From assembly GCA_922989275.2 (NCBI GenBank), contig OV277862.1:16411543-16475542 (forward strand): 64,000 nucleotides of DNA, in the 5' to 3' direction. Shown here piece after piece: positions 1 to 64,000 of this stretch; the first letter of the stretch is position 1, and each line of letters begins with the position of its first letter. The notes below the pieces were generated by a model. That model was not told the DNA's origin. It was given only the letters and a program-made list of their open reading frames with translations, and made no database searches. Made by a program: the position numbers and the translations under genes. The stretch is from Gari tellinella. Lineage: Eukaryota > Mollusca > Bivalvia > Cardiida > Psammobiidae.

Positions 1-68
1 ATTTAGTTATAGAACAGTAGCAGACGACTTAATTGCAGATGAAAAAAATACCCAGCATGCAAAGAGTT
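1..68 (-). mobile_element. F3 MITE, end fragment cut by window edge
   Basis: Ends with GCAGATGAAAAAAATACCCA and CAGCATGCAAAGAGTTA, the reverse complement of the F3 start. The rest of the copy lies outside the window. Confidence 0.75.
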
Positions 69-149
69 ATTACAATGAGGAATTTTAAAATAGTGAGTCG
101 ATCTTCCTTTTCTAATAACATTGTCATGACCAGTTAATAAAATGTCCAA

Positions 150-290
150 AATGTGTTTAAAACTATAGCAAACTGTAGTGCAGACCTTGATCAGAGGGCT
201 CTTGTTGACAGAAGCCCCTCTGATCTGGGTCTACATTGTTTGAAAAGGTTTTTACAATATACTCAGTCCCGCATTTTAAGGGTCTATAAC
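150..290 (+). mobile_element. F4 MITE, decayed copy
   Basis: Contains the F4 core (GTGCAGACCTTGATCAGAGG, then its inverted arm CCTCTGATCTGGGTCTACA) and the terminal motif AGTCCCGCAT. The outer ends have diverged, so the limits are approximate. Confidence 0.6.
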
Positions 291-491
291 ACATAAAACA
301 AGAAAATGTGCAGTATATATCTCTCTACAATCTTCAATAAGAAATATGTACTTCTTTATAGATATGTTCAAAGGAGTGATTTCAATGGGCTATTCTCCAG
401 GAGTCTTAAAGGCAATGGATCTACACAAGGAAAAACACTTTAGATGAGAACAGTCAATCTTATCCTTAACCACCATGGTGCACTCAAAGAA

Positions 492-760
492 CACATTATA
501 CTCTATAAATACATCTTTTTACTCCTTTAATTCATTCCTCCACAGAAGAAAGTAGTTACATTCTACGAAGTATTGGATGTGGAATATGAAATAATATTTT
601 CTATATCCTATCTGATGATAGCTTAAAGCAGGTTGAAAGTAAAGCAGAATACGCCTTAAGGCGTATTCTGCTTTACTTTCAACCTGCTTTATAATAAGTG
701 GTCACCTATTTTCAAAACTAGAGAACTATATAGAACTATGCTATGGGGTAAATGGTTTAA
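492..760 (-). mobile_element. F1 MITE, complete
   Basis: Reverse-orientation F1 with CTCTATAAATACATC at one end and GCTATGGGGTAAATGG at the other. The palindrome at about 630-692 has an unusual apex, ACGCCTTAAGGCGT, perfectly matched between arms. Confidence 0.8.
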
Positions 761-984
761 TTTATTCCTCCAATGAGGACAATAGTTCCACTTTATACAA
801 TCATGGATAAGGAACAGCAAATTATAAGTAATAAACTAATAAGGGAGATAATTCAATATCTGCAGATAAGACATTAGAGTTATGGTTATTGTCTGTTGTA
901 CTTCCTTAAATTACTTTCAACCTGCTTTAAAGTGGTCACCTATATTCAATACTAGAAACCAGCTATGGGGTAATTGTATGGGTT
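760..984 (-). mobile_element. F1 MITE, partial with replaced left arm
   Basis: Abuts the previous copy. It starts at the internal TTTATTCCTCC motif and ends with CTATGGGGTAATTGTATGGG-TTAA. The left arm of the palindrome is replaced by about 100 bp of unrelated sequence (about 815-905). Confidence 0.65.
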
Positions 985-1130
985 AATTAAACTATCATCT
1001 GCTATAGAATGTAATTAGGAATCTTTCTTATGGTGCTATTATTCTTGCACACATAAAGAGGAACTTTTTTCTACAGAGAAAGACTAAAGTAAATGCGTAA
1101 TAAGGCTAACTCTATTGGGCAATGGGTTAA
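985..1130 (+). mobile_element. F1 fragment, right half
   Basis: Carries CTATCATCTGCTATAGAATG through the terminus CAATGGGTTAA. The segment from GGAATCTTTCTTATGG onward recurs at 1365-1480, so this is part of a local duplication. Confidence 0.65.
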
Positions 1131-1364
1131 CCCATTAACCCATAAATACGCTTTTTACACTTTTAATTTATTCCTCCGTTTCAATTTATACAGGCGTGAA
1201 TAAATATTATAAGATAATTTTTCTATATTCTAGCAGATTATAGCTTAAAGCAGGCTGAAAGTAAAACAGAATGTGCCTTAAGGCACATTCTGCTTTACTT
1301 TCAACCTGCTTTAAGTGATCACATATCTTCAATACTAGAAACAGGCTATGGGGTAATAGGTTAA
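1127..1364 (-). mobile_element. F1 MITE, complete
   Basis: Begins TTAACCCATTAACCCATAAA and ends CTATGGGGTAATAGGTTAA. Shares its first TTAA with the preceding fragment. Apex is GTGCCTTAAGGCAC. Confidence 0.85.
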
Positions 1365-1480
1365 GGAATCTTTCTTATGGTTCTATTATTCTTGCACTCA
1401 TAGTTAAGAGGAACTATTTTCTACAGAGAAAGACTAAATTAAACACGTAATAAGGCACACTCTATGGGGCAATGGGTTAA
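1365..1480 (+). mobile_element. F1 fragment, duplicate of 1018-1130
   Basis: Starts GGAATCTTTCTTATGGTTCT and ends GGGGCAATGGGTTAA. Near-identical to the piece at 1018-1130, which points to a tandem duplication of about 350 bp. Confidence 0.7.
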
Positions 1481-1489
1481 ACACAGAAG

Positions 1490-1890
1490 AAAAGTTGTCT
1501 CAAGAGTTGTCATAAGAACAAGACATCGCTGTAGTTTACATCATATCGTACCGAGGTGAAAATCTCTCCATGAAAATCTTCAAAGGAAAACCGGGTCACC
1601 ACGCCACTATGGCTTTGGTTAAATTTGCATAAACTGACAACACTTAATTATTATGTAAGTGCATACTTAACTAGCAATAAAGCTCTCACACTTCAAAGTC
1701 GGTCACAACTTTTATCATGAAAACAAATTCTTCTCATAGTGACAATCTATGTCGTGTCACGTAATTCTGGCCCGTGTTACCTGATTTCTATAATCGTCTG
1801 TCCCAACTTGTCTATTACCGCCGCTACATTTTATGAATAAGAAGTTTTCAGCTTGGAAATGGTCTAACACATGGAAAGATGAATGAATAA
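1490..1890. other. Unassigned sequence
   Basis: About 400 bp with no hairpin, tandem repeat or convincing reading frame. Nothing recognised. Confidence 0.5.
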
Positions 1891-1897
1891 CATTTTT

Positions 1898-2155
1898 TTA
1901 ACCCATTTAACCCCATAGCCTATTTCTAGTTTAGATGAGAAGTGCATGACCACTTAAAACAGGTTGAAAGTAAAGCAGAATGTGCCTAAAGGCGCATTCT
2001 GCTTTACTTTTAGCCTGCTTTAAGCTATAATCTGCTAGAATATAGTAACTATTTCTCATTGTTCATATTCATAACTGTAAAAATTGGAACTATTTTTTTC
2101 AGAGGAGGAATAAAATAAAGGGGTACAAAGGCGTATTTATGGAAGAATGGGTTAA
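1898..2155 (+). mobile_element. F1 MITE, complete
   Basis: TTAA at both ends. Carries GCCTATTTCTAG, then the palindrome with apex GTGCCTAAAGGCGC (one arm mismatch), then AGAGGAGGAATAAA and TATTTATGG. Confidence 0.85.
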
Positions 2156-2339
2156 ATGACATCTGCTTTAATTCTGAAACTGACACACTTTCTCTCTTCG
2201 TTTGCAGACACACAAATTTAAATGAGTGACAAAAGTTTTGAATTTTTTTCAGATACTAAGATATTGATCAGGTGTATATAGCTATTGATCAGCTTTCCTA
2301 TATACTTTCAAAAAGCTAAATAACCCATTACTCCATAAA

Positions 2340-2524
2340 AGTGTGTTTTCGTTCTTTAAATATATTGCAAAATAACAAACAGTGCAGACCCTGATCAGAT
2401 GGCTCTCTATTAAAGGAGTCCTCTGATCTGGGTCAACACTGTTTGCATAGGACAAGTGTACTACTCACAGGTAAACATTTTGTAAATAACATCCATACGC
2501 ATGCCTTGGTGTTAATTGATTAAG
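2340..2524 (+). mobile_element. F4 MITE, partly decayed
   Basis: Core AACAGTGCAGACCCTGATCA and its inverted arm are followed by CATAGGACAAGTGTACTACT. The right end has drifted (CATACGCATGCC...TTAA). Confidence 0.65.
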
Positions 2525-2539
2525 TGTTCCAAAGTGACC

Positions 2540-2605
2540 AACAGTTTGGATCCTGACCAGATACAGATCTAGATATCTAGCACCTGATCTGGATACAATA
2601 TATGT
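2540..2605. mobile_element. F3-type hairpin remnant
   Basis: AACAGTTTGGATCCTGACCA is followed about 25 bp later by CCTGATCTGGATACAA. Only the core remains and no termini are visible. Confidence 0.45.
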
Positions 2606-2609
2606 GTAT

Positions 2610-2816
2610 ATGTATAGGAGTTTCAAGCTCAAATGTCAAGGTGAGATTCTGATCTACTTATCAGTTAGCTGATATTCTAAAGTCGGGCAACATTTGGCCA
2701 GATAAAAATATCAATGAAATTACACACTCCAACATCAACAATTTATCTCCACTAATTAGACGATAGTTTTTCAAGCTTACATGATTGTACAGTCACTCTA
2801 AAACAGGATAGATTAA
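2610..2816. other. Unassigned sequence
   Basis: AT-rich spacer between the F3 remnant and the next F2. Nothing recognised. Confidence 0.4.
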
Positions 2817-3009
2817 CAGGGCTCCAGAAAAGGGGAGTATTTCAAAAACTTAAATCTTTATTTCTACTTAAAACCCTATGGTGTCACTACTCATTTGAAT
2901 CGTCTCGAAGAGACGATTCTAATGAGTAGTAACACCATAGGTTTTATTGCTAAAACAAGTGAGAAACTGTTGGATTTGTGCAGTTCACTCCCCCTTGTCC
3001 GGAGCACTG
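2817..3009 (-). mobile_element. F2 MITE, complete
   Basis: Starts CAGGGCTCCAGAAAAGGGG and ends CCTTGTCCGGAGCACTG. The palindrome around GTCTCGAAGAGAC is nearly perfect. No clear target duplication is visible. Confidence 0.85.
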
Positions 3010-3024
3010 GCTTAATAGTATTTA

Positions 3025-3135
3025 TACAGGTGGCAGCTTAATGCAGGACAAAAGTATAAAGCAGAAAGCTATATATATAGCTCCTTTAGGAGTTTTCCAC
3101 TTTACTTGTGTCCTGCATTTAGTTGTCACCTGTTT
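3025..3135. mobile_element. F6 hairpin element
   Basis: ACAGGTGGCAGCTTAATGCA is mirrored by GCATTTAGTTGTCACCTGT. The apex is disturbed by an AT-rich insertion (TATATATATAG). No separate terminal repeats are seen beyond the ACAGGTG arms. Confidence 0.6.
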
Positions 3136-3230
3136 AACTCTATATTATAATTTGTATGCTGGGTAATTTTTTCGTCTGCAACAATTGTCGTCTGCTGATG
3201 TATATCCGCCGCTAGCGTTCAAAGAGTTAA
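3134..3230 (+). mobile_element. F3 MITE, core-deleted copy
   Basis: Only about 97 bp. F3 termini TTAACTC...TATGCTGGGTAATTT and CGCTAGCGTTCAAAGAGTTAA remain, and the whole palindromic core is gone. Its final TTAA is also the first TTAA of the following F1. Confidence 0.7.
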
Positions 3231-3480
3231 CCCATTACCCAATGGCCTGTTTCTAATATTGAAGATAGATAACCACTTAGGGCAGGTTAAAAGTAAAGCA
3301 GAATGCACCTTAAGGCGCATTCTACTTTACTTTCAGCCTGCTTTACGCTACCATCTACTAGAATATAGAAAATATTCCTTATGATACATATATTCATTAC
3401 TGTATAAATTGGAACTATTTTCTTCAGTGTGGGATTAAATTAGAGGCGTAAAAAGGTGTATTTATGGGGTAATGGGTTAA
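3227..3480 (+). mobile_element. F1 MITE, complete
   Basis: TTAACCCATTACCCAATGGC at the left and TATGGGGTAATGGGTTAA at the right. Shares its left TTAA with the core-deleted F3. Confidence 0.9.
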
Positions 3481-3484
3481 GAGA

Positions 3485-3945
3485 CATTAGTAATTCTTCA
3501 TAAACTTGCCAGGCCTCAAAATCCATGTTTGATTGTATTTTAACACAGCAAATATTGAAAACGTCCAAAAATATTTAGCGAAGAGGCCGTATAAAATAAG
3601 TCTTTTTAGTCGTAATAATGGTTATGTTACGCTTACAGTAATAACATTACAAATCAAAGAGATAAAGCAGATAATTTCCTCTTTGATATTTTCTATCATG
3701 GCACAAAAGATACCACTTCAAGTAGATAAACAGAAATAAGTTGAAAAGATTTCTAAACCTTTTCCCCCAATCACTGGCAAAAGTCCATACGTAAAGAACA
3801 CCTCATACAACCCTTGAGCACTAAGCCTATCTGTCTAAGACAAGCTGGCAGACCCTAGCTTGCAGACAATGTAGACCCTAAACCTCCAGCTGAAATTGCA
3901 ACCCTTTCTTATAATACAAGAGAATATAGAATAATGAATCCAATA
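3485..3945. other. Unassigned sequence
   Basis: About 460 bp without repeats or a defensible gene. The 68-codon frame at 3533-3739 has no recognisable domain. Confidence 0.45.
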
Positions 3946-3947
3946 CT

Positions 3948-4114
3948 TTAAGCTACAGTCTGCTAGAATTATTATTTTAGGAAATATTTCTTTGGCACAT
4001 ATTCATGGCTGTATAAATTGGAACTGTTTTCTGCTATATTCTGCTTTACTTTCAATCTGCTTTAAGTGGTCAGCTACCTTCAAACAAGAAACAGGCATCT
4101 GGGGTAATGGGTTA
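3948..4114. mobile_element. F1 chimera
   Basis: A '+' F1 right half (AAGCTACAGTCTGCTAGAAT ... TTGGAACTGTTTTC) joins directly to the right half of a '-' F1 (TATTCTGCTTTACTTTCAAT ... GGGGTAATGGGTTAA). The left palindrome arm and one half are lost. Confidence 0.65.
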
Positions 4115-4630: not shown

Positions 4631-4853
4631 TTAACTCTTTGCACGCTAGCGGCGGATAAACCTGCTATAATGATTACGTCTGCAAACAGATTGGATCCAG
4701 ATGAGACGCCGCGTAACACTTCATCTCATCAGGATCCAAACTGTTTGCTATTTTGACACTGAATTTAAAAGAAATTTTGAAAAATCTAATTTTAGAAGGA
4801 TAGCAGACGACAAATTGTTGCAGACGAAAAAAGTACCCAGCATGCAGAGTTAA
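4631..4853 (-). mobile_element. F3 MITE, complete
   Basis: TTAACTCTTTGCACGCTAGC at one end and CCCAGCATGCAGAGTTAA at the other. The core palindrome reads ATTGGATCCAGATGAGACGC with a partly decayed apex. Confidence 0.85.
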
Positions 4854-6482: not shown

Positions 6483-6696
6483 TTAACCCTTAGCCCGCCA
6501 AATAAATTATCGTCTGCTATATTTCTCGTCTGCTTCAAGTTTCAAAGTGCTTCAAAATTGCTCAAAATTGCTGAAAATATTGTCCGAGTGTCAAACAGCT
6601 TGGATCCGGATGAGACGCCGAGTTACTCGGCGTCTCATCCGGATCCAAGCTGTTTGCATATGGAGATATAGTCGTGACTGGCAGGCTAAGGGTTAA
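6483..6696 (+). mobile_element. F3-related TTAA MITE, variant termini
   Basis: TTAACCCTTAGCCCGCCA at the left and TGGCAGGCTAAGGGTTAA at the right form matched ends unlike ordinary F3, yet the core is F3-type. The palindrome at about 6594-6658 is perfect, with apex GCCGAGTTACTCGGC and outer arms CAAACAGCTTGGATCCGG. Confidence 0.85.
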
Positions 6697-6820: not shown

Positions 6821-9286
6821 TTAACCCTTTCGACTCATAGCTTGTTTTCAATATTGAAGACGGACAGTTGCTTACAGCAAGCTAAAAGTAAAGCAGAATA
6901 CTTTGTAAGGAACCTTCTGCTTTATACTTTCTGCCTGCCTTTAATTAATAACCTACCAATTTTGCTACAATGTAGGCTGTATTTCTATGACTGTAGAAAT
7001 AGACTGTAGACTGTAGGCTATTTCTATGACTGTAGAAATGGACTGTAGACTGTAGGCTATATCTATGACTGTAGAAATGGACTGTAGACTGTAGACTGAA
7101 GGCTATTTCTATGACTGTAGAAATGGACTGTAGACTGTAGACTGTAGGCTATATCTATGACTGTAGAAATGGACTGTAGACTGTAGACTGTAGGCTATAT
7201 CTATGACTGTAGAAATGGACTGTAGACTGTAGACTGTAGGCTATATCTATGACTGTAGAAATGGACTGTAGACTGTAGACTGTAGGCTATTTCTATGACT
7301 GTAGAAAGGCTATTTCTATGACTGTAGAAAGGCTATTTCTATGACTAGAAATAAACTGTAGACTGTAGGCTATTTCTATGACTGTAGAAATAGACTGCAG
7401 ACGGTAGGCTATTTCTATGACTGTAGAAATAGACTGTAGACTGTAGGCTATTTCTATGACTGTAAGAATAGACTGTAGACTGTAGGCTATTTCTATGACT
7501 GTAGAAATAGACTGTAGACTGTAGGCTATTTCTATGACTGTAGAAATAGACTAGACTGTAGGCTATTTCTATGACTGTAGGAATAGACTGTAGACTGTAG
7601 GCTATTTCTATGACTGTAGAAATAGACTGTAGACTGTAGGCTATTTCTATGACTGTAAGAATAGACTGTAGACTGTAGGCTATTTCTATGACTGTAAGAA
7701 TAGACTGTAGACTGTAGGCTACTTCTATGACTTTAAGAATAGACTGTAGACTGTAGGCTATTTCTATGACTGTAGAAATAGACTGTAGACTGTAGGCTAT
7801 TTCTATGACTGTAGAAATAGACTAGACTGTAGGCTATTTCTATGACTGTAGAAATAGACTGTAGACTGTAGGCTATTTCTATGACTGTAGAAATAGACTG
7901 TAGACTGTAGGCTATTTCTATGACTGTAGGAATAGACTGTAGACTGTAGGCTATTTCTATGACTGTAGAAATAGACTGTAGACTGTAGGCTATTTCTATG
8001 ACTGTAAGAATAGACTGTAGACTGTAGGCTATTTCTATGACTGTAAGAATAGACTGTAGACTGTAGGCTACTTCTATGACTTTAAGAATAGACTGTAGAC
8101 TGTAGGCTATTTCTATGACTGTAGAAATAGACTGTAGACTGTAGGCTATTTCTATGACTGTAGAAATAGACTGTAGACTGTAGGCTATTTCTATGACTGT
8201 AGAAATAGACTAGACTGTAGGCTATTTCTATGACTGTAGGAATAGACTGTAGACTGTAGGCTATTTCTATGACTGTAGAAATAGACTGTAGACTGTAGGC
8301 TATTTCTATGACTGTAGAAATAGACTGTAGACTGTAGGCTATTTCTATGACTGTAGAAATAGACTAGACTGTAGGCTATTTCTATGACTGTAGGAATAGA
8401 CTGTAGACTGTAGGCTATTTCTATGACTGTAGAAATAGACTGTAGACTGTAGGCTATTTCTATGACTGTAGAAATAGACTGTAGACTGTAGGCTATTTCT
8501 ATGACTGTAGAAATAGACTGTAGACTGTAGGCTATTTCTATGACTGTAGAAATAGACTGTAGACTGTAGGCTATTTCTATGACTGTAGAACTAGACTGTA
8601 GACTGTAGGCTATTTCTATGACTGTAGAACTAGACTGTAGACTGTAGGCTATTTCTATGACTGTAGAAATAGACTGTAGACGGTAGGCTATTTCTATGAC
8701 TGTAAGAATAGACTGTAGACTGTAGGCTATTTCTATGACTGTAGAAATAGACTGTAGACTGTAGGCTATTTCTATGACTGTAGAAATAGACTGTAGACTG
8801 TAGGCTATTTCTATGACTGTAAGAATAGACTGTAGACTGTAGGCTATTTCTACGACTGTAGAAATAGACTGTAGACTGTAGGCTATTTCGATGACTGTAG
8901 AAATAGACTGTAGACGGTAGGCTATTTCTATGACTGTAGAAATAGACTGTAGACTGTAGGCTATTTCTATGACTGTAGAAATAGACTGTAGACTGTAGGC
9001 TATTTCTATGACTGTAGAAATAGACTGTAGACTGTAGGCTATTTCTATGACTGTAGAAATAGACTGTAGACTGTAGGCTATTTCTATGACTGTAGGAATA
9101 GACTGTAGACTGTAGGCTATTTCTATGACTGTAGAAATAGACTGTAGACTGTAGGCTATGTCTATGACAGTAGAAATAGACTGTAGACTGTAGGCTATTT
9201 CTATGAATGTATTAAGTGGAACTCTTTTCTTTAGTGGCTTAATAAATCAAAGGCATACAAAGGTGTATCTATTGAGTCATGGGCAA
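6821..9286 (+). mobile_element. F1 MITE split by an internal minisatellite
   Basis: The left half (TTAACCCTTTCGACTCATAG, diverged palindrome to about 6945) lies before the minisatellite. The right half (TGTATTAAGTGGAACTCTTT, TTTAGTGGC, GGCATACAAAGGTGTATC, GTCATGGG) lies after it. Together they make one F1 copy. Confidence 0.75.
6971..9206. repeat. 39-bp minisatellite array
   Basis: About 2.24 kb of tandem TGTAGGCTATTTCTATGACT + GTAGAAATAGACTGTAGAC, a 39-bp unit and roughly 56 copies. Units in the first ~350 bp are longer because TGTAGAC is reiterated. Some later units lack TGTA (AATAGACTAGACTG). The unit itself is an imperfect inverted repeat (TATTTCTA / TAGAAATA). Confidence 0.97.
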
Positions 9287-9712: not shown

Positions 9713-9938
9713 TTAACACTTTGCATGCTAGCGGCGGATATAATCTGCCACAGGGATTACCTTTGCAAACAGTTTTGATCCAGATGAGACGCCGCGTAAC
9801 GCGGCGTCTCATCAGGATTCAAACTGTTCGACACTCTGACCCTGTTTTGAGAAGAAAATTAGAAAATTCTATTTTCAGAACAACAGCAGACGACAAATGT
9901 TGCAGACGAAAAAAATTACCCAGCATGCAAAGAGTTAA
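9713..9938 (-). mobile_element. F3 MITE, complete
   Basis: TTAACACTTTGCATGCTAGC at one end and CCCAGCATGCAAAGAGTTAA at the other. Apex GCCGCGTAACGCGGC. Reading frames on both strands here (9592-10035 and 9621-9812) only translate this element. Confidence 0.9.
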
Positions 9939-12857: not shown

Positions 12858-13109
12858 TTAACCCATTACCCCATAGCCTGTTTCTGGTATTGAAGATACA
12901 TGACCACTCAAAGCAGGTTGAAAGTAAAGCAGAATGTGCCTTTAGGCACATTCTGTTTTACTTTCAGCCTGCTTTAAGTTATCAAATGCTAGAATATAGA
13001 ATATATTTCTTATAATACATATTCATAGCTGTATAAATATGATCTCTTTTCTTTCGAGGAAGAATAAAATGAAAGGTGTAAAAAGGCATATTTATGGGGT
13101 AATGGGTTA
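12858..13109 (+). mobile_element. F1 MITE, complete
   Basis: TTAACCCATTACCCCATAGC to GGGGTAATGGGTTAA. Apex GTGCCTTTAGGCAC, perfectly matched. Confidence 0.92.
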
Positions 13110-13141
13110 AAGTATTGCCAACAGTATTCTCTATAATTCTA

Positions 13142-18913: not shown

Positions 18914-19268
18914 AGAAATTCCTGTACATGCTATGGGGAATAGTTGACAGTGAGAGGAGCAAGGCAGGGCTGCCATTTCTCCGGATTTTTCCTAAATCTT
19001 CAGATTTTTTTCTAGACATGGTAGCTTAAACCAGGCTGAAAGAAAAGCAGAATGGGCCTTAGGGCGCATTCTGCTTTACTTTCAGCCAGCTTTTAGCAGC
19101 CACGTGTCAACAAAACTAGAAACAGGCTTTGGGGAAAAGGTACAATTCGTAAAATTGCACTTGAAAAATGCAAGTTTGGAAATCTTAGGATTTTTCATGT
19201 CAACTTATGGCAGCCCTGAAATTCCTGTACACGCTATGGGGAATAGTTGCAAGTGAGAGGAGCAAGGC
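18914..19268. repeat. About 50-bp direct repeats flanking an insert
   Basis: GAAATTCCTGTACATGCTAT...GAGGAGCAAGG occurs at about 18914-18965 and again at about 19217-19266 with three or four differences. Confidence 0.85.
18966..19216. mobile_element. Composite element, CAGGGCTGCCAT ends with an F1-type core
   Basis: CAGGGCTGCCAT and ATGGCAGCCCTG are perfect 12-bp inverted ends resembling hAT termini. Inside sits an F1 reverse core (GGTAGCTTAAACCAGGCTGA, apex GGGCCTTAGGGCGC, then CTAGAAACAGGCTTTGGGG). It sits precisely between the two direct repeats. Confidence 0.7.
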
Positions 19269-21141: not shown

Positions 21142-21413
21142 TTAACCGTTACGTACGTAACCCCATAGCATAATTAATGTTTCATGTTTTGAAGATACGT
21201 GACCTGCACTTAAAGCAGGTTGAAAGTAAAGCAGAATGCGCCTTAAGGCGCAATCTGCTTTACTTTCAGCCTGCTTTAAGCTATTCTCTGCTAAAATATA
21301 GAAAATATTTCTGATGATACATATTCATGACTGAATAAATTTGACATATTTTCTTCAGTGGAGGAATAAGTCAGAGGCGTAAAAAGGCATACTTATTGGG
21401 TTATGGGTATAAA
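21142..21413 (+). mobile_element. F1 MITE, complete
   Basis: TTAACCGTTACGTACGTAAC start with a small insertion, apex GCGCCTTAAGGCGC, end TTATTGGGTTATGGGTA. Confidence 0.82.
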
Positions 21414-25415: not shown

Positions 25416-25589
25416 TATGCAGTCGAAACTCAATACTTCAAACTCGTTTAAATCCACCTAACCAGTATTTCATAAGTTTGATTTTGATAACTCAATCTCG
25501 CTTAATTTGAAAATACCCATTATATTAACTTTGAAATATGGTTATATTCGAACTAACGCGAGTCCGAAGTATCAATTTCGACTGTTATA
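25416..25589. mobile_element. pogo/mariner-like MITE
   Basis: CAGTCGAAACTCAATACTTC at the left and the complement of TATAACAGTCGAAATTGATA at the right. Inverted ends of about 27 bp with TA at the outside. Ends starting CAGTCGAAA are typical of pogo-type elements. No transposase frame. Confidence 0.75.
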
Positions 25590-26843: not shown

Positions 26844-27060
26844 TACAGTAAAACCCCTCTATTACCACCACTAGATTATGTTAATTATTAGGTGCTTATA
26901 TATAGGACAGGTGACCGCTGAAAGCAAGGTGACAGTAAAACAGAAAGCTCCTAAAGGAGCTTTCTGTTTTACTGTCACCTTTCTTTAAGCTGTATCACCT
27001 GTTTTTTATACAATCAATTAGCCTTCATTTAAGTGGTCGTAATAGAGAGGTTCTACTGTA
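26844..27060. mobile_element. F5 MITE, complete
   Basis: TACAGTAAAACCCCTCTATT and its inverted end AATAGAGAGGTTCTACTGTA, with ACCACCACT / AGTGGTCGT inside. Core arms AAAGCAAGGTGACAGTAAAA with apex GCTCCTAAAGGAGC. TA-flanked ends suggest the Tc1/mariner group. Confidence 0.85.
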
Positions 27061-28772: not shown

Positions 28773-30332
28773 CAAGAGGGCCTGAAGGCCCTGATATCGC
28801 TCACCAATTGTAATGAAGCCTGATAGCTTTACCTTTGAATTTTACCTGTTTTATTCTAAATCCATTCAAGTTTGTAGATCTACTGTAGTATAGTAGAGTA
28901 CATCAAAGGCAGACAACTAGAGCCTAAACAATACTGAAATGAAGCCTATTTTTCTAGCACTTCAAGGGCAGGTAACTATTGCAACAATGATTACATTTCA
29001 ACAATAATTGCAGTATTGCACTCCTTCGAGAACGTATAGCTACATCCTTTGTGTACAAATATAATCAAAATCCATTGAAAACTGTAGTTGCAAGAGTGTA
29101 AACGCTGTTAAATATGGCAATTTCAGCAATTCAAAGGTAGATATCTCATGATCTATTTGTCCGATTCCAACCATAATCACCCTTTTTCGAACTCTTATGG
29201 TCATATTATACAATCTGAGCAAGTTTGAGAGAGCTTGGATAAATATTGTGGCCTCTAGAGCGTAAACACTGTTAAATATATCATTTTCAGCAATTCAAAG
29301 GTAGATAACTCTTGACCTATTGATGTGATTACAACCATAATTGAACTCATTCGAAGTCTTACGGTAATATACCATCTGAGTAAGTTTGAGAAAGAGTGGA
29401 TAAAATTTGTGGCCTCTAGAGTGTAAACATCGTTAAATATGGCATTTTCAGCAATTCAAAGGTAGATAACTCTCGACCTATATATAAGTCTGATTTCAAC
29501 CGTAATCACACTCATCTGAACTTTTATAGTCATATACAATCTTAGCAAAATCGAGATAGATTGGATAAAAATTGTGAACTCTAGAATGTAAACATTGTTA
29601 AATATGGCATTTTCAGCAATTCAAAGGTAGATAACTCTCGACCTATTGGTCCGATTTCAACCATAATCAAACTCATCTGAACTCTTATGGTCACATACAA
29701 TCTGAGCAAGTTTGAGAAAGATTGGATAAAAATTGTGGCCTCTAGCCTGTAAACTTCCTTAAATATGGCATTTTCAGCAATTCAAAGGTAGATAACTCTC
29801 GACCTGTTAGTCCGATTTCAACCATAATCATCCTCATCTGAACTCTTATAGTCATATACAATCTGAGCAAGATTGAGATAGATTGGATCAAAATTGTGGC
29901 CTCTAGAGTGTAAACACTGTTAAATATGGCATTTTCAGCAATTCAAAGGTAGATAACTCTTGATCTATTAGTCGGATTTCAACCATAATCGAACTCATTG
30001 GAACTCTTATGGTAATATACAATCTGGGCAAGTTTCAGAAAGATTGGATAAATATTGTGGCCTCTAGAGTGTAAACACTGTTAAATATGGCATTTTCAGC
30101 AATTCAAAGGTAGATAACTCTTGACCTATTGGCCTGATTTCAACCATAATCAAACTCATCCGAACTCTTATGGTAATATACAATCTGAGCAAGTTATAGA
30201 AAGATTGGATTAAAATTGTGGACTCTAGAGTGTAAACACTAAAATTGTTGACGACGAACGACTAACGACGAACGACGGACGCCGGACATTCAAGGATTGC
30301 AAAAGCTCACCCTGAGCTAGCTCAGGTGAGCT
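28773..30332. mobile_element. Pearl-like / Helitron-like non-autonomous element
   Basis: 1,560 bp. Left end CAAGAGGGCCTGAAGGCCCT with a GGGCC hairpin, then GATATCGCTCACC. Right end ACGACGAACGACGGACGCCG and a terminal palindrome CCTGAGCTAGCTCAGG in TGAGCT. Subterminal GCTCACC motifs at both ends. The A-rich junction hides any short target duplication. Bivalve pearl elements have this design; the assignment is from general knowledge of the family. Confidence 0.8.
29095..30225. repeat. ~161-bp tandem units in pearl-like element
   Basis: CTCTAGAGTGTAAACACTGT recurs at about 29253, 29414, 29577, 29740, 29901, 30062 and 30223, a period of about 161 bp and seven units. Each contains TTTTCAGCAATTCAAAGGTA and TGAACTCTTATGGTCATATA. 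An extra divergent unit lies upstream. Confidence 0.92.
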
Positions 30333-39214: not shown

Positions 39215-39465
39215 TTAACCCTTTGAACCCTAGTCCCGCATATAGGCGTCATTTTCAAACAGTATACATGTGAGTTTTACAATTGTCCTGTGCAAACAGT
39301 GAAGACCCAGATCAGAGGGCTCCGAAAGGAGCCCTCTGATCAGGGTCTTCACTGTTTGTCATTATGCCAAACATTGACAAAAACAACTCTTAAAAGTCAT
39401 AAATGGACTTGACTAAAATGGAAATTGGAATTTTCGATTTAAAGTTTCAGGGAGGAAAGAGTTAA
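39215..39465 (-). mobile_element. F4 MITE, complete
   Basis: TTAACCCTTTGAACCCTAGT to TCAGGGAGGAAAGAGTTAA. Apex GGCTCCGAAAGGAGCC. Very similar to the copy at 55241. Confidence 0.93.
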
Positions 39466-41526: not shown

Positions 41527-43128
41527 TACAGTGGAGGAAACGTTATTCTTTCCCATTTTAACGCAAACAAAACACAAACGCATAGCACTAAAACCAAGAA
41601 AAGTACAACTTTTGGACAATTCTGATAATTCATGTTTATCTTGGTGGCAAACAGTTTGGAGCCTGATCAGACCCGGGTTACCCGGCCTCTGATCTGGCTC
41701 CAAACTGTTTGCATCGGAAATAATAGTTTTACCCAGGCAAAATATGACCATGGTTGACCAAGACCAATCATGGTTCATCATGCTTTTTTTCAGGTTTAAC
41801 CATGGTTGAACATGAATTTCAATAATTTATGACCATGGTAGAACCATGGTTTGAAAAGAAACCTGGTCACAATATTGTTGACCTAGGTTGAACATGGTTC
41901 AAATGCTACAGACCTAAGGTTGACCATAGTTCAGCTTTTTTGACCATGGTTACAACAAACCATATTGTCAACCTTGAAGAACATGAATTTTAATTTATAA
42001 TTACCAACCATGTTCCTCTGATCAAGTTCATTCCATGCATGAAAGTTCATGTCCCTAGCATCAGTAGAATTGGAGATATCTTCTGGACAAAAAGTGTGAC
42101 AGATAGAATATCAGTAATATGTGCTACAATTGTAAGTTTCACAAAACAGTGAATATTATACATCACTCAGGGCACCTGCTGACAACATAATCACAAGGTC
42201 AGAGATTTGAAGTTGTCTGTTTATCTGTACTTTAAAATGTGAATGTGGCAAAAATTAAAGACTCCAAACCAGTTCAGACTCCTGCCAACAGGTTCATGGT
42301 AAGTTACATAACTTACATAAATACAGTTTTATAATGAGCATGATATATTTTGGATATTTACATGATACAAACAAAAGCATGTGGTACCCCACCCACTAGT
42401 AGTTTACTATGACACAAGACACATTATCTATATGCCTTTGCAAGCAAAGTACTTGTCAGTTGGAAAACAGTCAAAAGTATTTCTGTTACTGGAGCTTGTT
42501 AGATTTTAACTTAACTTTGTATTAATTTGAAAATATGATGTTGTTTGAAGGTGACCTAGTTGCAGCCATGAGGAGCTTAGTGATGTAAGTCACAGTGACT
42601 AAACCACCTGGCCACAATTCATAGATATTAATTCTAATTATAGCCTAAAAGGTTATGGTTAAGGTCATGAAAGCAAGAATGGTTAAAATATATTGTGATG
42701 AGTGAAGTGTCTCACATTTATAATTGCTGTTTGTCATTCTTATTCCAAATTCAGCCGGTTCTAACCATGGTTGCCCATGGTAATTCCTGGTTAACTATGG
42801 TCCGGGGAGCAGGTTTTTAACAATAAAAGTTAGTAGACCATGGTTGATGATCCTGGGTTCAAACATGGTCTAACCATGGTGCAACCATGTTTATTTGACC
42901 AAGGTCTAACCATGTATCAAACCATGGTTTCCCTTTGAACCAGGAATAACCATGGTTCAAACATGGTCGGCCAATTTGCCTTTTGTTAAAAGCATGGTTA
43001 ACCATGGTCAACAATAGGTCCCTGAACCAAAGGTAAACCTAAGGTTAACCATGGTTAAACTTGGTCAATTTTTGCCTGGGTAGCGTAAACGCGTTTATTG
43101 GGAAAGAATAACGTTTTCCCCACTGTAA
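41527..43128. mobile_element. Outer TACAGTGG-ended MITE with F3-type core
   Basis: TACAGTGGAGGAAACGTTAT (41527) and the complement of TTACAGTGGGGAAAACGTTA at the right (ending 43127) are inverted ends of about 35 bp with TA at the outside, as in Tc1/mariner elements. The core hairpin at about 41648-41712 has arms GCAAACAGTTTGGAGCCTGA and apex CCCGGGTTACCCGG. Interrupted at 41730. Confidence 0.8.
41732..43080. mobile_element. Inner CCCAGGCAAAA-ended element rich in ACCATGGTT
   Basis: 1,349 bp between TA dinucleotides (41730-41731, 43081-43082). CCCAGGCAAAA and TTTTTGCCTGGG are inverted ends. Both flanks (about 41740-42010 and 42755-43070) are packed with ACCATGGTT and variants (ACATGGTTC, CCATGGTAGAACCATGG). 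The middle 42010-42750 is non-repetitive with no frame I can support. Non-autonomous; mariner-like by its TA flanks. Confidence 0.85.
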
Positions 43129-49830: not shown

Positions 49831-49847
49831 GTTTTGGCTTTACTAGT

Positions 49848-50063
49848 ACTGTAAAACCTTTCTAATACGACCACTCAAACCAAAGAATAATTAATTGTAT
49901 AAAAGACAGGCGACAGCTTAAAGCAAGGTGGCAGTAAAACAGAAAGCTCCTAAAGGAGCTTTCTGTTTTTACTGTCACCTTTCTTTAAGCATTCACCTGT
50001 CATAAACACCTAATAATTTACACAATTTAGTGGACGTAATATAGCGATTTTCCTACTACCGAG
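49848..50063. mobile_element. F5 MITE, complete
   Basis: TACTGTAAAACCTTTCTAAT to GTAATATAGCGATTTTCCTA. Core AAAGCAAGGTGGCAGTAAAA with apex GCTCCTAAAGGAGC. Confidence 0.85.
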
Positions 50064-53188: not shown

Positions 53189-53660
53189 TTTAACCCATTA
53201 TACTCCATAAATACATGTACACCTTTTTGCTTTCAATTTATTCCTCCACTGAAGAAACAAGATAGCCCCACAGTCATGAATTATATAATGTACAGTAAAA
53301 CCCCTCTATTACGACCACTAAAGTATTTTAATTATTAGGGTGTTTACAATAGGTAACCGCTCAAATCAAGTTGGCAGTGAAAAATAAGCTCCTTTAGGAG
53401 CTTTCTGTTTCACTGTCACCTTGCTTTAATCCGTCACCTGTCTATTGTTTAATCAATAAGACTTCGTTTTGTGGTCGTAATAGCGAGGTTTTACTGTACT
53501 ATAAGAAATATTGGCAATAGTAGCCTAGCAGATGGTAACTTAAAGCAGGCTGAAAGTAAAGCAGAATGTGCCTTGAGGCGCATTCTGCTTTCCTTTCTGC
53601 CTCCTTTAAGTGATCACTGTTTTCAAAACTAGAAACAGACTATGGGGTTAAATGGGCTAA
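53189..53660 (-). mobile_element. F1 MITE with nested F5
   Basis: TTAACCCATTATACTCCATA start, GTCATGAATTATATAATG before the F5 and CTATAAGAAATATTGGCAAT after it, apex GTGCCTTGAGGCGC, end ATGGGGTTAAATGGG. Confidence 0.85.
53291..53498. mobile_element. F5 MITE nested in F1
   Basis: TACAGTAAAACCCCTCTATT and GCGAGGTTTTACTGTA are inverted ends. Core AAATCAAGTTGGCAGTGAAA with apex GCTCCTTTAGGAGC. Confidence 0.9.
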
Positions 53661-54109: not shown

Positions 54110-54222
54110 GCACTCAGACAGGTTGCTGCTTAAAGCTGACTGGAAGTAAAGCAGAAAGCTCCTTCAGGAGCTTTCTGCTTTACTTCCAGTCTGCTTTAAG
54201 CAACAACCCATATTTAAAACTG
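54110..54222. mobile_element. F6/F1-type perfect hairpin
   Basis: GACTGGAAGTAAAGCAGAAA and its complement TTTCTGCTTTACTTCCAGTC with apex GCTCCTTCAGGAGC. Outer arms GGTTGCTGCTTAAAGC / GCTTTAAGCAACAACC. About 75 bp of symmetry with no obvious terminal repeats. Confidence 0.75.
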
Positions 54223-55022: not shown

Positions 55023-55507
55023 TAAACCCGCATGACCCCATAGTTTGTTTCTAGTTTTGAAGAGTGATCACTTAAAGCAGGTTGAAGGCGCATTCTGCTT
55101 TACTTTCAGCCTGCTTTAGCTGTAACAATCATTCTGCTGGGACATAGAAAATATGTTTAATGATACATATTTCATGGCTGTTTAAAGAGGAACTATTCTC
55201 CTCGGTGGAGGAATAAATTAAAGGCGTAAAAAAGACCCATTCAACCCTTTGAACCCTAGTCCCGCATATAGGCGTCCTTTTCAAACAGTGTACATGTGAA
55301 TATAACACTTGTCCTGTGCAAACAGTGAAGACCCAGATCAGAGGGCTCGGAAAGGAGCCCTCTGATCAGGGTCTTCACTGTTTGTCATAATGCCAAAAAT
55401 GGACAAAAACAACCCTTAAAAGCCAGAAATAGACTAGACTAAAATCGAAACTGGAATTGTCCATTTAAAGTTTCAGGGAGGAAAGAGTTAAGGGGTATAA
55501 TGGGTTA
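55023..55507 (+). mobile_element. F1 MITE with nested F4
   Basis: GTTAAACCCGCATGACCCCA start; core lacks the left half of the hairpin (GGTTGAAGGCGCATTC). AAAGGCGTAAAAAAGACCCA before the F4 and GGGGTATAATGGGTTAA after it. Confidence 0.8.
55241..55491 (-). mobile_element. F4 MITE nested in F1
   Basis: TCAACCCTTTGAACCCTAGT to TCAGGGAGGAAAGAGTTAA. Left target TTAA mutated to TCAA. Apex GGCTCGGAAAGGAGCC, with one mismatch against the perfect 39215 copy. Confidence 0.92.
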
Positions 55508-55618: not shown

Positions 55619-55845
55619 TTAACCCATTGCATGCTGGGTAATATTTGGCGGCCATTTTAAAATGGTGTCTGCAGCAGGTATAACTCAAATATTTGCAAAA
55701 GATTTTAGCAGTTTCTGATAGAATATTAACTTTGCTGCAAACAGTTTTGATCTCAGATCAGGCCCCACAATGTGGGGCCTGATCTGAGAATAAAACTGTT
55801 TGCCTAGATGTACACCTAAAAGTGTATCCCGCATAAAATGGGTTA
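55619..55845 (+). mobile_element. F7 TTAA MITE
   Basis: TTAACCCATTGCATGCTGGG at the left and CCCGCATAAAATGGGTTAA at the right. Core CAAACAGTTTTGATCTCAGA with apex GCCCCACAATGTGGGGC. Terminal CCCATT matches F1 and GCATGCTGGG matches F3, so it links the two families. Confidence 0.85.
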
Positions 55846-55849
55846 ATGT

Positions 55850-59761: not shown

Positions 59762-59789
59762 GATTCAACTTTTCCTTCCCTGCAGAAGC

Positions 59790-59870: not shown

Positions 59871-59916
59871 GTTATCAATATTCGTAATTAGGCAGAGATG
59901 AAGTTATATCCATAGA

Positions 59917-60117
59917 CTAGGGCTCCAGATAAGAGTGAGTAAACTGAACCAATCACAAATCACAAATATTCTCACTTATTTCAGCACCAAATCTTATGGT
60001 GATACTACTCATTAGAATCGTCTCGAAGAGACGATTCTAATGAGTAGTAACACCATAGGGTTTAATGCAGAAATAAAGATTTTAGTTTCTGAAATATTCC
60101 CCTTATCTGAAGCCCTG
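59917..60117 (+). mobile_element. F2 MITE, complete
   Basis: CTAGGGCTCCAGATAAGAGT to CTTATCTGAAGCCCTG. Internal ATCACAA duplicated near 59950. Palindrome apex CTCGAAGAG. Confidence 0.88.
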
Positions 60118-60264
60118 TATTGCTTCAATTGAAGGGTTACGGATTAGCCGCGGCTCAGCATGAAGAGAGATAATTGGCCTGACACTAAGATGCAATGATA
60201 TTAAAATTGCAAAAACTAGTTTTGCTTGGTTTCACGCTATCTGCCTTTCCATTATTGTAATTAT

Positions 60265-60486
60265 ACAATAAAACCTCTCTTCCACAGTCACTCGGCCAGA
60301 AATCAGCAATAGTTTAAGGCAGATGGTTGCTTAATGCAGGACAAAAGTATTGCAGAAAGCTCCTATAGGAGCTTTCTGCAATACTATTGTCCTGCAATAC
60401 TATTGTCCTGCAATAAGTTGTCCCTTGCGTTAAAGACTATAAATACATCTTTATATGCAATGGTTGCTCATGAGAGATTTTACAGT
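60265..60486. mobile_element. F5 frame carrying an F6 core
   Basis: TACAATAAAACCTCTCTTCC at the left and GAGAGATTTTACAGTA at the right are F5 ends. The core is F6 (CTTAATGCAGGACAAAAGTA with apex AGCTCCTATAGGAGCT). AATACTATTGTCCTGC is duplicated on the right arm. This copy shows F5 and F6 are related. Confidence 0.75.
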
Positions 60487-60487
60487 A

Positions 60488-60718
60488 TCTTTCAGCTGGA
60501 TTGGGAAGTTCGAGACTGTTTCAAAGGCGAACTACATGAAGATGTTTTATGAGGAGACATGTCCTTAACAAAAGGATGAATCAAGCGGAACTGAGCCTTT
60601 TTCTTAAAATAGAAAGTTTTTTCAGCCGCTTCTCAAATCATCTCCTTCTACCAATAAACTCACAACTTAGTCACAAATTTTGCTTTTTACATGGCATATT
60701 TTGATTTCTTTCTCTTTT
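60488..60718. other. Unassigned sequence
   Basis: About 230 bp with nothing recognised. Confidence 0.3.
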
Positions 60719-60720
60719 TT

Positions 60721-60992
60721 TTAACCCATTACTCCATAATTATATAGATCTATACACATTTTTACGACTTTAAATATATTTCTCTACTGAAGAAAATAGT
60801 ACCACATAAACTACAGTAAAAAATATACACAGTAAGAAATATTGTATATATTCTGGCAGATGGTAGCATAAAGTAGGCTGAAAGTAAAGCAAAATGTGCC
60901 TTCGGGTGCATTCTGTTTTACTTTCAACCTGCTTTACGTGGTCATTTGTCTTCAAAACTAGAAACAGGCTATTGAGTTATAGTCTTAGTTAA
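60721..60992 (-). mobile_element. F1 MITE, complete
   Basis: TTAACCCATTACTCCATAAT to GTTATAGTCTTAGTTAA. Apex GTGCCTTCGGGTGC. Confidence 0.85.
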
Positions 60993-61080
60993 CCTAATCA
61001 GAAATGCACTTTTACAGATCAAGAATCTTGAACAGCACTTTATTCTGTCCTGAACCATAAAAGTACTTTATCATCAAAAC

Positions 61081-61286
61081 TACAGTAAAAATACAGACAC
61101 TCTCACCCAAAGTACTTTCATGTTGTCAAAGACAATGGTACCTTAAAGGAAGATGAAAGTAAAGCAAAAGCTCCTTTAGGAGCTTCTTGCTTTACTTTTA
61201 TCCTGCTTTAAGCAGCTACCTGCCTTAAAAAAACTGAAAATACAAGCTTTCATTACCCATGATCTAAGTAGTCAGACCTTACTGTA
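61081..61286. mobile_element. F5 MITE, complete
   Basis: TACAGTAAAAATACAGACAC to AGTCAGACCTTACTGTA. Core GGAAGATGAAAGTAAAGCAA with apex GCTCCTTTAGGAGC, intermediate between F5 and F1 cores. Confidence 0.8.
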
Positions 61287-61455
61287 AGCCTCAAAGGAAT
61301 CCTCACTCTAAAAGATTCAGTCGATAAGGCCAGTAAATGTAGTAACCTTGTTTTAACCAGGAAGGCATTAAAATGATTCTACACTATTATCCAATAATGC
61401 CTAAATTGATAAACACTAATCCAGGTACTTTTTACAGGAAGATATGATCAGTTGG

Positions 61456-61723
61456 TTAACCTTTTACTCCATAGCTTGTTTCTAGTTTAGGAGACTGTTG
61501 ACCGCTTAAAGCAGGTTGAAAGTAAAGCAGAATGTGCCTTAAGGCACATTCTGCTTTACTTTCAACATGCTTTAAGCTACCATCTGCTAGGATATACTCA
61601 TCATATAGAAAATGTTTCTTATGGTGTACATTCATGACTGTATAAATAGGATTCAACTATTTTCCTCTGGTGGATAAACAAATTAAAAGCGTAAAAAGGT
61701 GTTTTTATGGGGTAATAGGTTAA
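61456..61723 (+). mobile_element. F1 MITE, complete
   Basis: TTAACCTTTTACTCCATAGC to TATGGGGTAATAGGTTAA. Perfect apex GTGCCTTAAGGCAC. Confidence 0.92.
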
Positions 61724-61912
61724 ACAGGCACAGATCCTTCATTTACAGTTATACTCCACATCAGATCTGGCTATGTAATCAACACAAGACATGGAACCAT
61801 CTGTGGAATAATGATTACTACTGCAGAGACAAGGCATGAGATATCAAAACCTGAATGGCTTCATTAATATCTAGAAGATGTAGCCTTTCTTGTATGAAAC
61901 AATAAAGGTCTT

Positions 61913-62150
61913 GGGCCGGTCTTACAAAAAGTCGTACAACAAAAATGGTAGTAAGTCAAAACTAAAATACATCTAATTTCTCTATCTAATCCTGTCTTGT
62001 GACATGTCATAGGCATCATCTTTACAAGACAATTCCAAAGAGATGTCACAAGACAGGACAAGATGGAGAAATAAATAATAATTGAAATTTTGAGAATCTG
62101 ACTTACGACGTCACAATAATTGTCGAAAGACATTTCGTAAGACTAGCCCC
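61913..62150. mobile_element. Foldback MITE with GGGCCGGTCTTAC ends
   Basis: GGGCCGGTCTTACAAAAAGT at the left and the complement of GGGGCTAGTCTTACGAAATG at the right. A second inner palindrome pairs ATTTCTCTATCTAATCCTGT and CTTGTGACAT with GTCACAAGACAGGACAAGAT and GGAGAAAT. No transposase. Family unknown. Confidence 0.72.
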
Positions 62151-62265
62151 AGAGCTCTAGATAACTTATCATAAGGTGGGTATTTCAAATACTAATACTA
62201 TCATTCTTTTAAATGTTTTCATAGACGATTGTAATGAGTAGTCACAACATATGAATTCATATGAA
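62148..62265 (-). mobile_element. F2 MITE, decayed
   Basis: CCAGAGCTCTAGATAACTTA, GGTGGGTATTTCAAATACTA and AATGAGTAGTCACAACATAT keep F2 order. The right end is missing. Confidence 0.55.
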
Positions 62266-62397
62266 TTCCCTAATCTCTGAAAGCTTGAAACAAATTTTCT
62301 AGGTCTTGTCAGCTCGTCCTGCATGCTTTCCCCCATTGCCTATTGCACAGGGTGAGTGCATTTTGGGGTTTGCCTTCATTGTCTTTCATGCAAGACT

Positions 62398-62590
62398 CAG
62401 GGCTCCAGATAAGAGGGGGTAAACTGCACAAATCCAACATTTTCTCACTTATTTAAGCATCAAATCCTATGGTGTTACTACTCGTTAGAATCGTCTCGAA
62501 GAGACGATTCTAATGAGTAGTGACACCATAGGGTTTAAAGCAGAAATAAAGATTTTAGTTTTTGAAATACTCACCTTATCTGGAGCTCTG
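62398..62590 (+). mobile_element. F2 MITE with 6-bp target duplication
   Basis: CAGGGCTCCAGATAAGAGGG to CTTATCTGGAGCTCTG, flanked by AAGACT (62392-62397, 62591-62596). Perfect palindrome with apex CTCGAAGAG. Confidence 0.95.
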
Positions 62591-62650
62591 AAGACTATAG
62601 TGATAGAATTTTTGATGCCTGACTTTACAAACAGTTTGAATACATTGGAT

Positions 62651-62843
62651 CAGGGCTCCAGATAAGGTGAGTATTTCAAAAACTAAAATCTTTATTTCTA
62701 AATTAAACCCTATGGTGTCACTACTCATTAGAATCGTCTCGAAGAGACGATTCTAATGAGTAGTAACACAATAGGATTTGATGCTAAAATAAGTGAGAAA
62801 ATGTTGAATTTGTTCAGTTTACTCCCTCTTATCTGGAGCCCTG
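62651..62843 (-). mobile_element. F2 MITE with 7-bp target duplication
   Basis: CAGGGCTCCAGATAAGGTGA to CTTATCTGGAGCCCTG, flanked by ATTGGAT (62644-62650, 62844-62850). Confidence 0.94.
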
Positions 62844-62849
62844 ATTGGA

Positions 62850-63268
62850 TGCAGATTTTGTATTTGATCAGTATTCCCACTGTTTGTGACTCTAACCAGA
62901 TATCTGCAAATACTGAAGAGAGGGCTAATTCCAACAGATGACCGACATACATTCAGTGTTCTATACCTCTAAACAATAAGACCCATTATCTTCATTAATC
63001 TGGTCATTTTTCAAACATTTCCTATCTCCCCCAGAGGTGACACTGGTATCCGGAGTGTAAATCCATCATCCATGGTCTGATCAATATGAACATTTGTTTT
63101 CCTTTCTTATTATCTAATTGGTGCCGTCTTCTGTTGCCTTTTTCCTGCTTCAGATATACAACTTCAATTATCTCTTTCCAATAATGTACTTGGCAGCAAT
63201 GTACTGTACAACCAAGGCAGGATGTGTGAAACTGGTTTTTATTCAATATTTAATAATATTTGAGTCAA
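62850..63268. other. Unassigned sequence
   Basis: About 420 bp. The 74-codon minus-strand frame at 63022-63246 is unrecognised. Confidence 0.4.
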
Positions 63269-63271
63269 TAG

Positions 63272-63740
63272 TTTAGCCTTTTCCCCCATAGTCTACAGAT
63301 TAAGTACTGAAGACAAATATGGGTGCTTAAAGCAGGATGGAAGTAAAGCAGAAAGCTCCTGAAGGAGCTTTCTCAGTTTCCGCTGTAACTTTCATCTTGC
63401 TTTAACTCTTTCCTCCCTGAAACTTAAAATGGACAATTCCAGTTTCCATTTGAGTCTAGTCCATTTCTGACTTTTTAGGGTTGTTTTTGTCAATGTTTTG
63501 CATTATAACAAACAGTATTGACCCAGATCAGAGGGCTCCATAAGGAGCCCTCTGATCTGGGTTTTCACTGTTTGCATAGGACAAGTGCACTTTTCACATG
63601 TATACTGTTTGAAAAGGATGCCTATATGCGGGACTAGGGTTCAAAGGTTTAAGCTACCATCTTTGTTGTACACCATATTCAGGTAATATCTGATAATGTG
63701 GTGTAAAAGTTAAAGACATCATTGGAGGAACTTTTAAGTT
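63272..63740 (+). mobile_element. F1-like MITE split at TTAA by F4
   Basis: TTAGCCTTTTCCCCCATAGT start, core AAAGCAGGATGGAAGTAAAG with apex GCTCCTGAAGGAGC, right arm ending CATCTTGC-TTTAA at the insertion, then TTAAGCTACCATCTTTGTTG after it. The right end is unclear. Confidence 0.75.
63402..63652 (+). mobile_element. F4 MITE nested at an internal F1 TTAA
   Basis: TTAACTCTTTCCTCCCTGAA to ACTAGGGTTCAAAGGTTTAA. TTAA at both ends. Removing it restores the F1 sequence CTTGCTTTAAGCTACCATCT. Apex GGCTCCATAAGGAGCC. Confidence 0.95.
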
Positions 63741-63904
63741 TCCTTGCTTTGCTCAAGGGAAGCGGTTAACACTAATTTGGCTATAATATAATGATTGCCT
63801 GCAATTTAACCTCTAAATATTCAGCAGCTTTTTACTCTGCATAAACTGTATGTAATAAATTGAAGATGGAGGATTATAATATTGACAGCAGTAAGCAGCT
63901 AAAG

Positions 63905-64000
63905 CTGGGCTCCAGATAATAGAAAATAAACCAATTGTTTCCTTGTTTTCTCCTTAAAGTTAAACCTTCACCAAACCCTATGTTGTGCCTACTCATAAAT
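63905..64000 (+). mobile_element. F2 MITE cut by window end
   Basis: TGGGCTCCAGATAATAGAAA to TGTTGTGCCTACTCATAAAT, left half only. Confidence 0.75.

Follow-up and report, generated by a model that had tools for sequence, protein, structure and literature searches.

In the bivalve Gari tellinella, the same long hairpins form the cores of miniature inverted-repeat transposable elements (MITEs) that differ in their ends and in their transposition class. We analysed a 64-kb stretch of contig 7 (OV277862.1), hereafter the window, together with a sample of 20 stretches of 10 kb (200 kb; 264 kb with the window) from contigs 1–8 of the 1.6-Gb genome (80 contigs); the sample was placed at fixed round coordinates and is not strictly random. 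Core A occurs in elements with TTAA ends, with TA ends, and with 6-bp target duplications, and core B occurs in elements with TTAA ends and with TA ends; each core thus spans different transposition classes. A first-pass annotation of the window had reported the same hairpin cores within different ends and had argued that families of different transposition classes share them. Both statements are confirmed, and the sharing is more extensive than had been stated. Capture of the cores by nesting of TTAA MITEs is its likely origin. The ten frames that hold a hairpin core make up 20.0% of the sampled sequence and 42.7% of the window, and the 146 full cores per 200 kb extrapolate, with sample placement not strictly random, to about 1.2 million copies.

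Types and folding of the hairpin cores

The cores are long, near-perfect hairpins of 65–75 nt with a stem of about 31–36 bp and a tiny loop. A direct hairpin scan of the window gave 94 hairpins, and a similarity search gave 114 full cores (48 A, 27 C, 18 B, 9 B2, 6 A2, and 6 A3) and 45 further partial cores. The six forms represent three unrelated hairpins: A (A, A2, and A3), B (B and B2), and C. The related cores are alike beyond chance: the arms of A, A2, and A3 exceeded shuffled sequences by far (p 0.0002, the floor of the test), and those of B and B2 also exceeded them (p 0.0002–0.0005). The arms of core C showed no likeness to any other core (p 0.30 or more). A kinship of A and B2 through a common inner stem gave p values of 0.0012–0.0075, uncorrected, when anchored at the apex and a local score that was not significant (0.28–0.82), and is not claimed.

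Six example cores folded as DNA gave energies of −31.8 to −39.1 kcal/mol (z −11.4 to −15.6). A scan for strong hairpins found 109 in the sample and 0 in its shuffled copy, and 92 of the 109 were assigned to the A, B, or C type. TTAA lies at or near the tip in 46 of 119 A-type cores. In three cases a TTAA element occupies the tip of a hairpin (A3 at L003:4589–4838, B2 at L021:4716–4977, and A at L021 near 600), possibly through a preference for such sites.

The size and stem length of the cores would also fit an RNA role, in which transcribed hairpins give double-stranded or small RNAs that are beneficial to the elements or tolerated. No Rfam family matched within the window at the gathering score, and we regard this role as very improbable.

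Frames, ends, and target duplications

Frames were defined by clustering the outward flanks of the 259 full cores of the window and sample, independently of the families in the first-pass annotation; the F7 frame was read in the window only. Core A lies in F1, which ends in TTAA (58 copies in which both flanks were assigned), and in GCC, which has CAGGGCTGCC ends of the CAGGG type (5). Core A3 lies in F5, with TACAGTAAAACC ends (9 copies with both flanks assigned). Core B lies in two TA frames, TA1 (TACAGTGGAG; 14 copies) and TA2 (TACAGTGCTCCC; 7 copies), again counted with both flanks assigned, and in the TTAA or near-TTAA frames F3 (3), 6592 type (5), and c9-c16 (3). Core B2 lies in F4, with TTAA ends (15 copies), and core C in a single frame (32 copies). 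Neither side was assigned for 20 of 76 B, 9 of 27 B2, 8 of 95 A, 10 of 10 A2, 2 of 14 A3, and 2 of 37 C cores. In most consensus builds, conservation ended at the element ends.

All frames other than GCC and C carry TTAA or TA within their ends. Both ends of F1, F3, F4, F7, and the 6592 type consist of TTAA followed by CCC(T/A)T or a close form, with mutated ends in some copies. F5, TA1, and TA2 have inverted ends of the CAGT type and a TA target duplication, the duplication being read as the TA within each end. Perfect 6-bp target duplications were found in 4 of 6 GCC and 8 of 34 C copies, and none were found at 8 bp. The 8-bp duplication expected of hAT elements was thus replaced by one of 6 bp, and GCC and C were not filed as hAT. 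The GCC copy in the window is bounded by 49-bp direct repeats that are identical at 46 of 49 positions (18916–18964 and 19219–19267), instead of the 6-bp duplications of the other copies.

These frames bear on several placements in the annotation. Core A in F1 at 12858 and in F5 at 26844 holds, the latter likewise at 49847 and 53291. The CAGGGCTGCCAT ends at 18966 belong to a real family, but this element also contains side 1 of F1. The TACAGTGG element at 41527 represents a real family with 14 sample-supported copies having both flanks, although the window copy is without its right end; an assessment of it as unsupported, made from the window only, was withdrawn after the flanks of the window and sample were clustered. 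Core B was correctly placed in F3, F4, and F7, but all three end in TTAA and resemble one another in their first bases. F1, F3, F4, and F7 all use TTAA, and sharing among them requires no change of transposase class. The core at 54110, described as lacking ends, indeed has no recognisable frame (some 240 comparisons yielded a single weak match, p 0.015). The assignment of 61081 to F5 was not confirmed; here, too, a single weak match was obtained, to one of the two sides (p 0.015).

Remnants of the donor and distribution of cores among frames

GCC includes F1 sequence that begins within 5 nt of the F1 end and matches over 42 nt ahead of the core (p 0.002, the floor of 500 shuffles). The F1 part runs through the core and stops about 17 nt beyond it, so that GCC holds half an F1 element. 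TA2 includes the start of a TTAA element and its core and leaves it soon after (p 0.002, at the same floor). Because of these donor remnants, we interpret the sharing as the outcome of nested insertion and subsequent re-amplification, and the nested capture put forward in the annotation is supported in two frames.

The B cores clustered by frame (analysis of similarities, ANOSIM, R 0.88), and 45 of 47 had their closest relative among the cores of their own frame; the A cores also did so (R 0.62; 65 of 72). These results indicate that the cores are frame-specific and, accordingly, that capture is rare. Frequent exchange or conversion between frames was set aside for the same reason, and the movement of cores between frames that the annotation had considered is not supported as a frequent event. 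The GCC cores are the exception, since the nearest core lay in the same frame in 0 of 5 and they were indistinguishable from F1 cores; the GCC capture looks recent.

F1 and F5 were alike over 102 ungapped nucleotides, which comprise the A unit only. Of six flank comparisons for TA1, none was significant, and TA1 has only the B core in common with other frames. Such sharing would be expected if the palindrome were itself a small mobile element (for A, the ACAGGTG...CACCTGT unit) inserted separately into several MITEs, and the absence of an assigned frame from all ten A2 cores agrees with it. On reading the unit edges, however, we recognised no target duplication, GCC and TA2 keep donor flanks as well, and the lone A2 cores may have decayed frames. 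We therefore consider a mobile palindrome improbable.

Within the window, distances among F1 copies correlated between neighbouring segments and hardly across the element, as if the copies were mosaic, and variants shared among F1 copies were almost unlinked over 250 bp. The shared variants were considered as a sign of constraint at the source level and were downgraded; being nearly unlinked, they may recur by chance, and the split into private and shared variants is not used as proof.

Retention and divergence of the core

The core was present in 136 of the 141 frames with paired ends in the 264 kb, and the other five were deletions or mis-pairs. The exact flank pattern of TA1 occurred genome-wide at 21361 sites with a core and 268 without one (about 1%). 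Roughly the first 100 of the 268 coreless sites were listed, of which three had no clear arm remnants. The listed copies read as deletions, with the hairpin apparently acting as a deletion hot spot. By eye, four junctions among those listed recur at short repeats in or beside the arms.

Divergence was measured in copies chosen by one flank alone, with the core compared with the other flank. In the window, the core diverged less than the flank in F1 (36/44 and 36/40) and C (23/30 and 24/30), and in the sample it did so in F1 (25/31 and 37/39) and TA1 (17/18 and 20/21). For eight frames together, 49 of 61 copies had a core less divergent than their mid-flank (p 4e-7). The core and end divergences were 0.083 and 0.150–0.160 in F1, 0.071 and 0.122 in F4, and 0.015 and 0.014 (equal) in the 6592 type; in F3 they were 0.082 and 0.027, so that the inner region was not better kept. 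In the 12 F1 copies whose cores were cleanest, divergence was 0.019 in the core and 0.145 in the flank.

These results bear on the possibility that the hairpin is an inert passenger. A new MITE would be likely to trap a common hairpin MITE by nesting, and the lower divergence of the core would then reflect uniform sources or younger cores. The coverage of the sample by hairpin MITEs, the nesting seen in the remnants, the grouping of cores by frame, as one-off captures would give, and the near absence of linkage among shared F1 variants, which makes sources hard to define, are all consistent with this possibility. The finding that, in several frames, the core of a copy diverges less than its flanks and the presence of the unrelated hairpins C and D (family D is described below) in other frames argue against it, and we consider it somewhat unlikely.

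Pairing of the stem

The comparison of stem pairs between frames used six and five rows and excluded the apical pairs of B, where F4 has one extra base. Among the outer 24 pairs of core B, 8 pairs varied, and each of them had changed in both arms in one frame or more; for core A this was true of 12 of the 13 pairs that varied. No pair varied between frames on one side only. Stem compensation between frames is therefore firmly established.

Stem compensation between copies of one frame is weak. Within F1, before row cleaning, there were 23 compensated changes against 9.0 expected in the window and 25 against 9.8 in the sample; the clean rows (59 of the 80 F1-frame cores) gave 37 against 17.5. 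The shuffles for these expectations still include the relatedness among copies.

Compensated changes between frames, and some within F1, could also arise by mutation alone if one arm were copied from the other by template switching, or through conversion, so that stems stay perfect without use; the recurrence of TA1 deletion junctions at short repeats fits such events. Arm copying by itself does not lower divergence from the consensus, and the frame-specific cores, with the R of 0.88 for B, oppose genome-wide homogenisation. This explanation is even less probable than a mobile palindrome.

Proposed origin and role of the hairpin

We propose that the hairpins are native to piggyBac-type TTAA MITEs and were then taken into MITEs of other classes. 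The remnants in two frames show the first step: a TTAA element came to lie, together with its hairpin, within an element of the TA or CAGGG type, and its sequence past the hairpin is now missing. The composite then multiplied by means of the outer element's ends, as is also seen in these frames. In older composites, which may include TA1 and F5, the donor flanks would have eroded until the hairpin or the ACAGGTG unit remained. Finally, the hairpin would be retained as it raises the spread of the MITE that holds it; for example, it may fold out and bring both ends together, in which case the paired stem would matter and not one particular transposase.

Because the core is retained and its stem is compensated between frames, we tentatively suggest that the hairpin is a general aid to MITE spread. 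Taken as a whole, the explanation by nested capture and a hairpin that aids spread is plausible, if somewhat short of an even chance. A broader form, in which a perfect hairpin of about 65–75 nt of any sequence (A, B, C, or D) would serve as a transposase-independent amplification module under any ends (TTAA, TA, or the 6-bp class), its holders outcompeting other MITEs and nested capture passing it between superfamilies, is speculative and rather unlikely. The annotation had suggested that the core is useful in any frame; the lower divergence of the core and the compensation between frames are in its favour, and the function itself we only infer.

Several results weigh against a role in spread or against the proposed capture. 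Coreless TA1 copies exist (the 268 sites above), and no frame in its state before capture, without a core, was seen in the window and sample. Frames were located via their cores, so that MITEs without a hairpin are under-sampled. F4 in the sample showed the same direction of divergence without significance (p 0.083–0.098), and the core was below the mid-flank in only 1 of 3 F3, 1 of 3 c9, and 3 of 5 GCC copies. The 14-nt ends were kept at least as well as the core in GCC, F3, the 6592 type, and c9 (n 3–5 each). The excess of compensated changes within F1 came mostly from two CpG pairs; without them, the 59 cores gave 12 against 5.8 expected (11 of 1000 shuffles) and the sample alone gave 5 against 3.6 (282 of 1000), which is no excess. 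Core C likewise showed no excess. Cores A, B, and C were also absent from all ten autonomous TTAA elements examined.

The explosive growth of MITE families is usually attributed to their ends and the transposase. What the high-copy families found here have in common is a hairpin in their interior, which occurs across classes and diverges less than its surroundings. This cautions against the use of inner sequence to group MITEs into families.

Elements in the window and other repeats

The elements of the window are summarized in Table 1.

Table 1. Positions of hairpin-containing elements in the window
Element	Ends	Core	Position	Strand	Remarks
F1	TTAA	A, 12907–12978	12858–13110	+	flank and consensus analysis
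F5	TA (TACAGTAAAACC)	A3, 26917–26990	26844–27060	+	shared A unit about 26907–27002
F5		A3, 49916–49990	49847–50057	−	right end decayed
F5		A3, 53359–53431	53291–53498	+	sits in F1 copy
GCC	CAGGGCTGCC	A, 19025–19096	18965–19218	−	F1 side 1 on one side
TA1	TACAGTGGAG	B, 41648–41711	41527–41737	+	without right end; family seen in sample
F3	TTAA	B, 4683–4747	4631–4853	−	
F3	TTAA	B, 9766–9830	9713–9938	−	
6592 type	TTAACCCTTAGC	B, 6592–6656	6483–6696	+	ends resemble autonomous piggyBac-like family
F4	TTAA	B2, 39293–39358	39215–39465	+	
F4		B2, 55319–55384	55241–55491	+	
F4		B2, 63509–63574	63402–63652	−	
F7	TTAACCCATTGCATGC	B-type hairpin, 55737–55803	55619–55846	+	sequence reading, hairpin scan
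F5-like	F5-like	A2, 60330–60401	60264–60487	+	strongly decayed
No recognisable frame		A type	54129–54200	.	
C	CAGGGCTCCAGATAAG	C (unrelated), 62462–62536	62398–62590	+	

The leftover repeats with at least 7 copies were tandem or SINE-like (resembling short interspersed nuclear elements) by eye, and those with at least 4 copies comprised MITE family D, one palindromic repeat, and one uncharacterised repeat. Family D, found without core probes, is a further TA-type MITE with its own central hairpin; its copies lie at L009:3029–3225, L006:2831–3028, and 25420–25585 of the window, the last of which seems to have lost part of the hairpin. Tandem arrays with units of 39 bp and about 161 bp occupy 6971–9211 and 29093–30240 of the window; repeats like those of the latter array also occur in the sample.

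Sources of the ends and occurrence elsewhere

The genome gave 86 matches to piggyBac transposase, and paired TTAA-CCC ends were found at 10 of the 20 piggyBac loci cut out. One autonomous piggyBac-like family has ends that resemble the 6592 frame. There were at least 150 matches to DDE_1, and one of three DDE_1 elements examined has TACAGTAGAAC ends, similar but not identical to those of F5, TA1, and TA2. The hAT dimer domain also gave at least 150 matches, which are not tied to these frames.

The A, B, and C patterns had no match in a collection of viral contigs. In a collection of genome contigs, one B pattern matched once, at a contig end in a spirochaete metagenome-assembled genome, presumably from a lucinid clam; the contig (L001:1–110) opens with one half of a B hairpin and an end of the TTAA type, which is probably animal contamination. 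An open reading frame across the 6592-type B element gave 57 protein matches, most on contigs shorter than 2 kb (18 of the 57 were read), and these matches indicate that the element is widespread. The open reading frame of an A element gave 3 protein matches.

Comparison with known systems

The autonomous piggyBac-like elements of this genome resemble the F1-type MITEs in their TTAA and CCC(T/A)T ends but hold no A, B, or C core. F5, TA1, and TA2, which we take to be pogo-like MITEs of the Emigrant/Lemi1 type, share TACAGT ends and a TA target with that group and differ from it in having inner hairpins that are homologous to the hairpins of TTAA elements. The name hATpin has reportedly been given to MITE-like elements whose secondary structure is very stable.

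Among the papers that searches of the open-licence part of PubMed Central (PMC) listed, none was concerned, by its title or abstract, with hairpin cores common to several MITE superfamilies. The M1 and M2 repeats of Pithovirus resemble MITEs, are palindromic and present in high copy number, and have a putative TA duplication (PMC10664404); they differ in that they lie in viral genomes and, as far as the portion consulted describes, the palindrome is the whole element and no core is shared between frames. The closest precedent found, for a core that is better conserved than the ends, is the CMITE group of Acropora corals (PMC2872659). According to the consulted part of that report, CMITEs are TTAA MITEs of the piggyBac kind with differing terminal repeats around a shared inner region of about 75 nt, for whose sequence a 60-nt consensus is published, this region is more conserved than the ends, and the authors suggest that it has a role in transposition; CMITE-IN is a new element formed by nested insertion. 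The CMITEs are all of the TTAA type, whereas the Gari cores also occur in TA elements and elements with 6-bp duplications. The same text describes no hairpin, whereas the Gari core folds into a near-perfect hairpin, and this role is taken by three hairpins that are unrelated to one another. The hairpin form and the crossing between transposition classes thus go beyond the CMITE precedent as it is described there.

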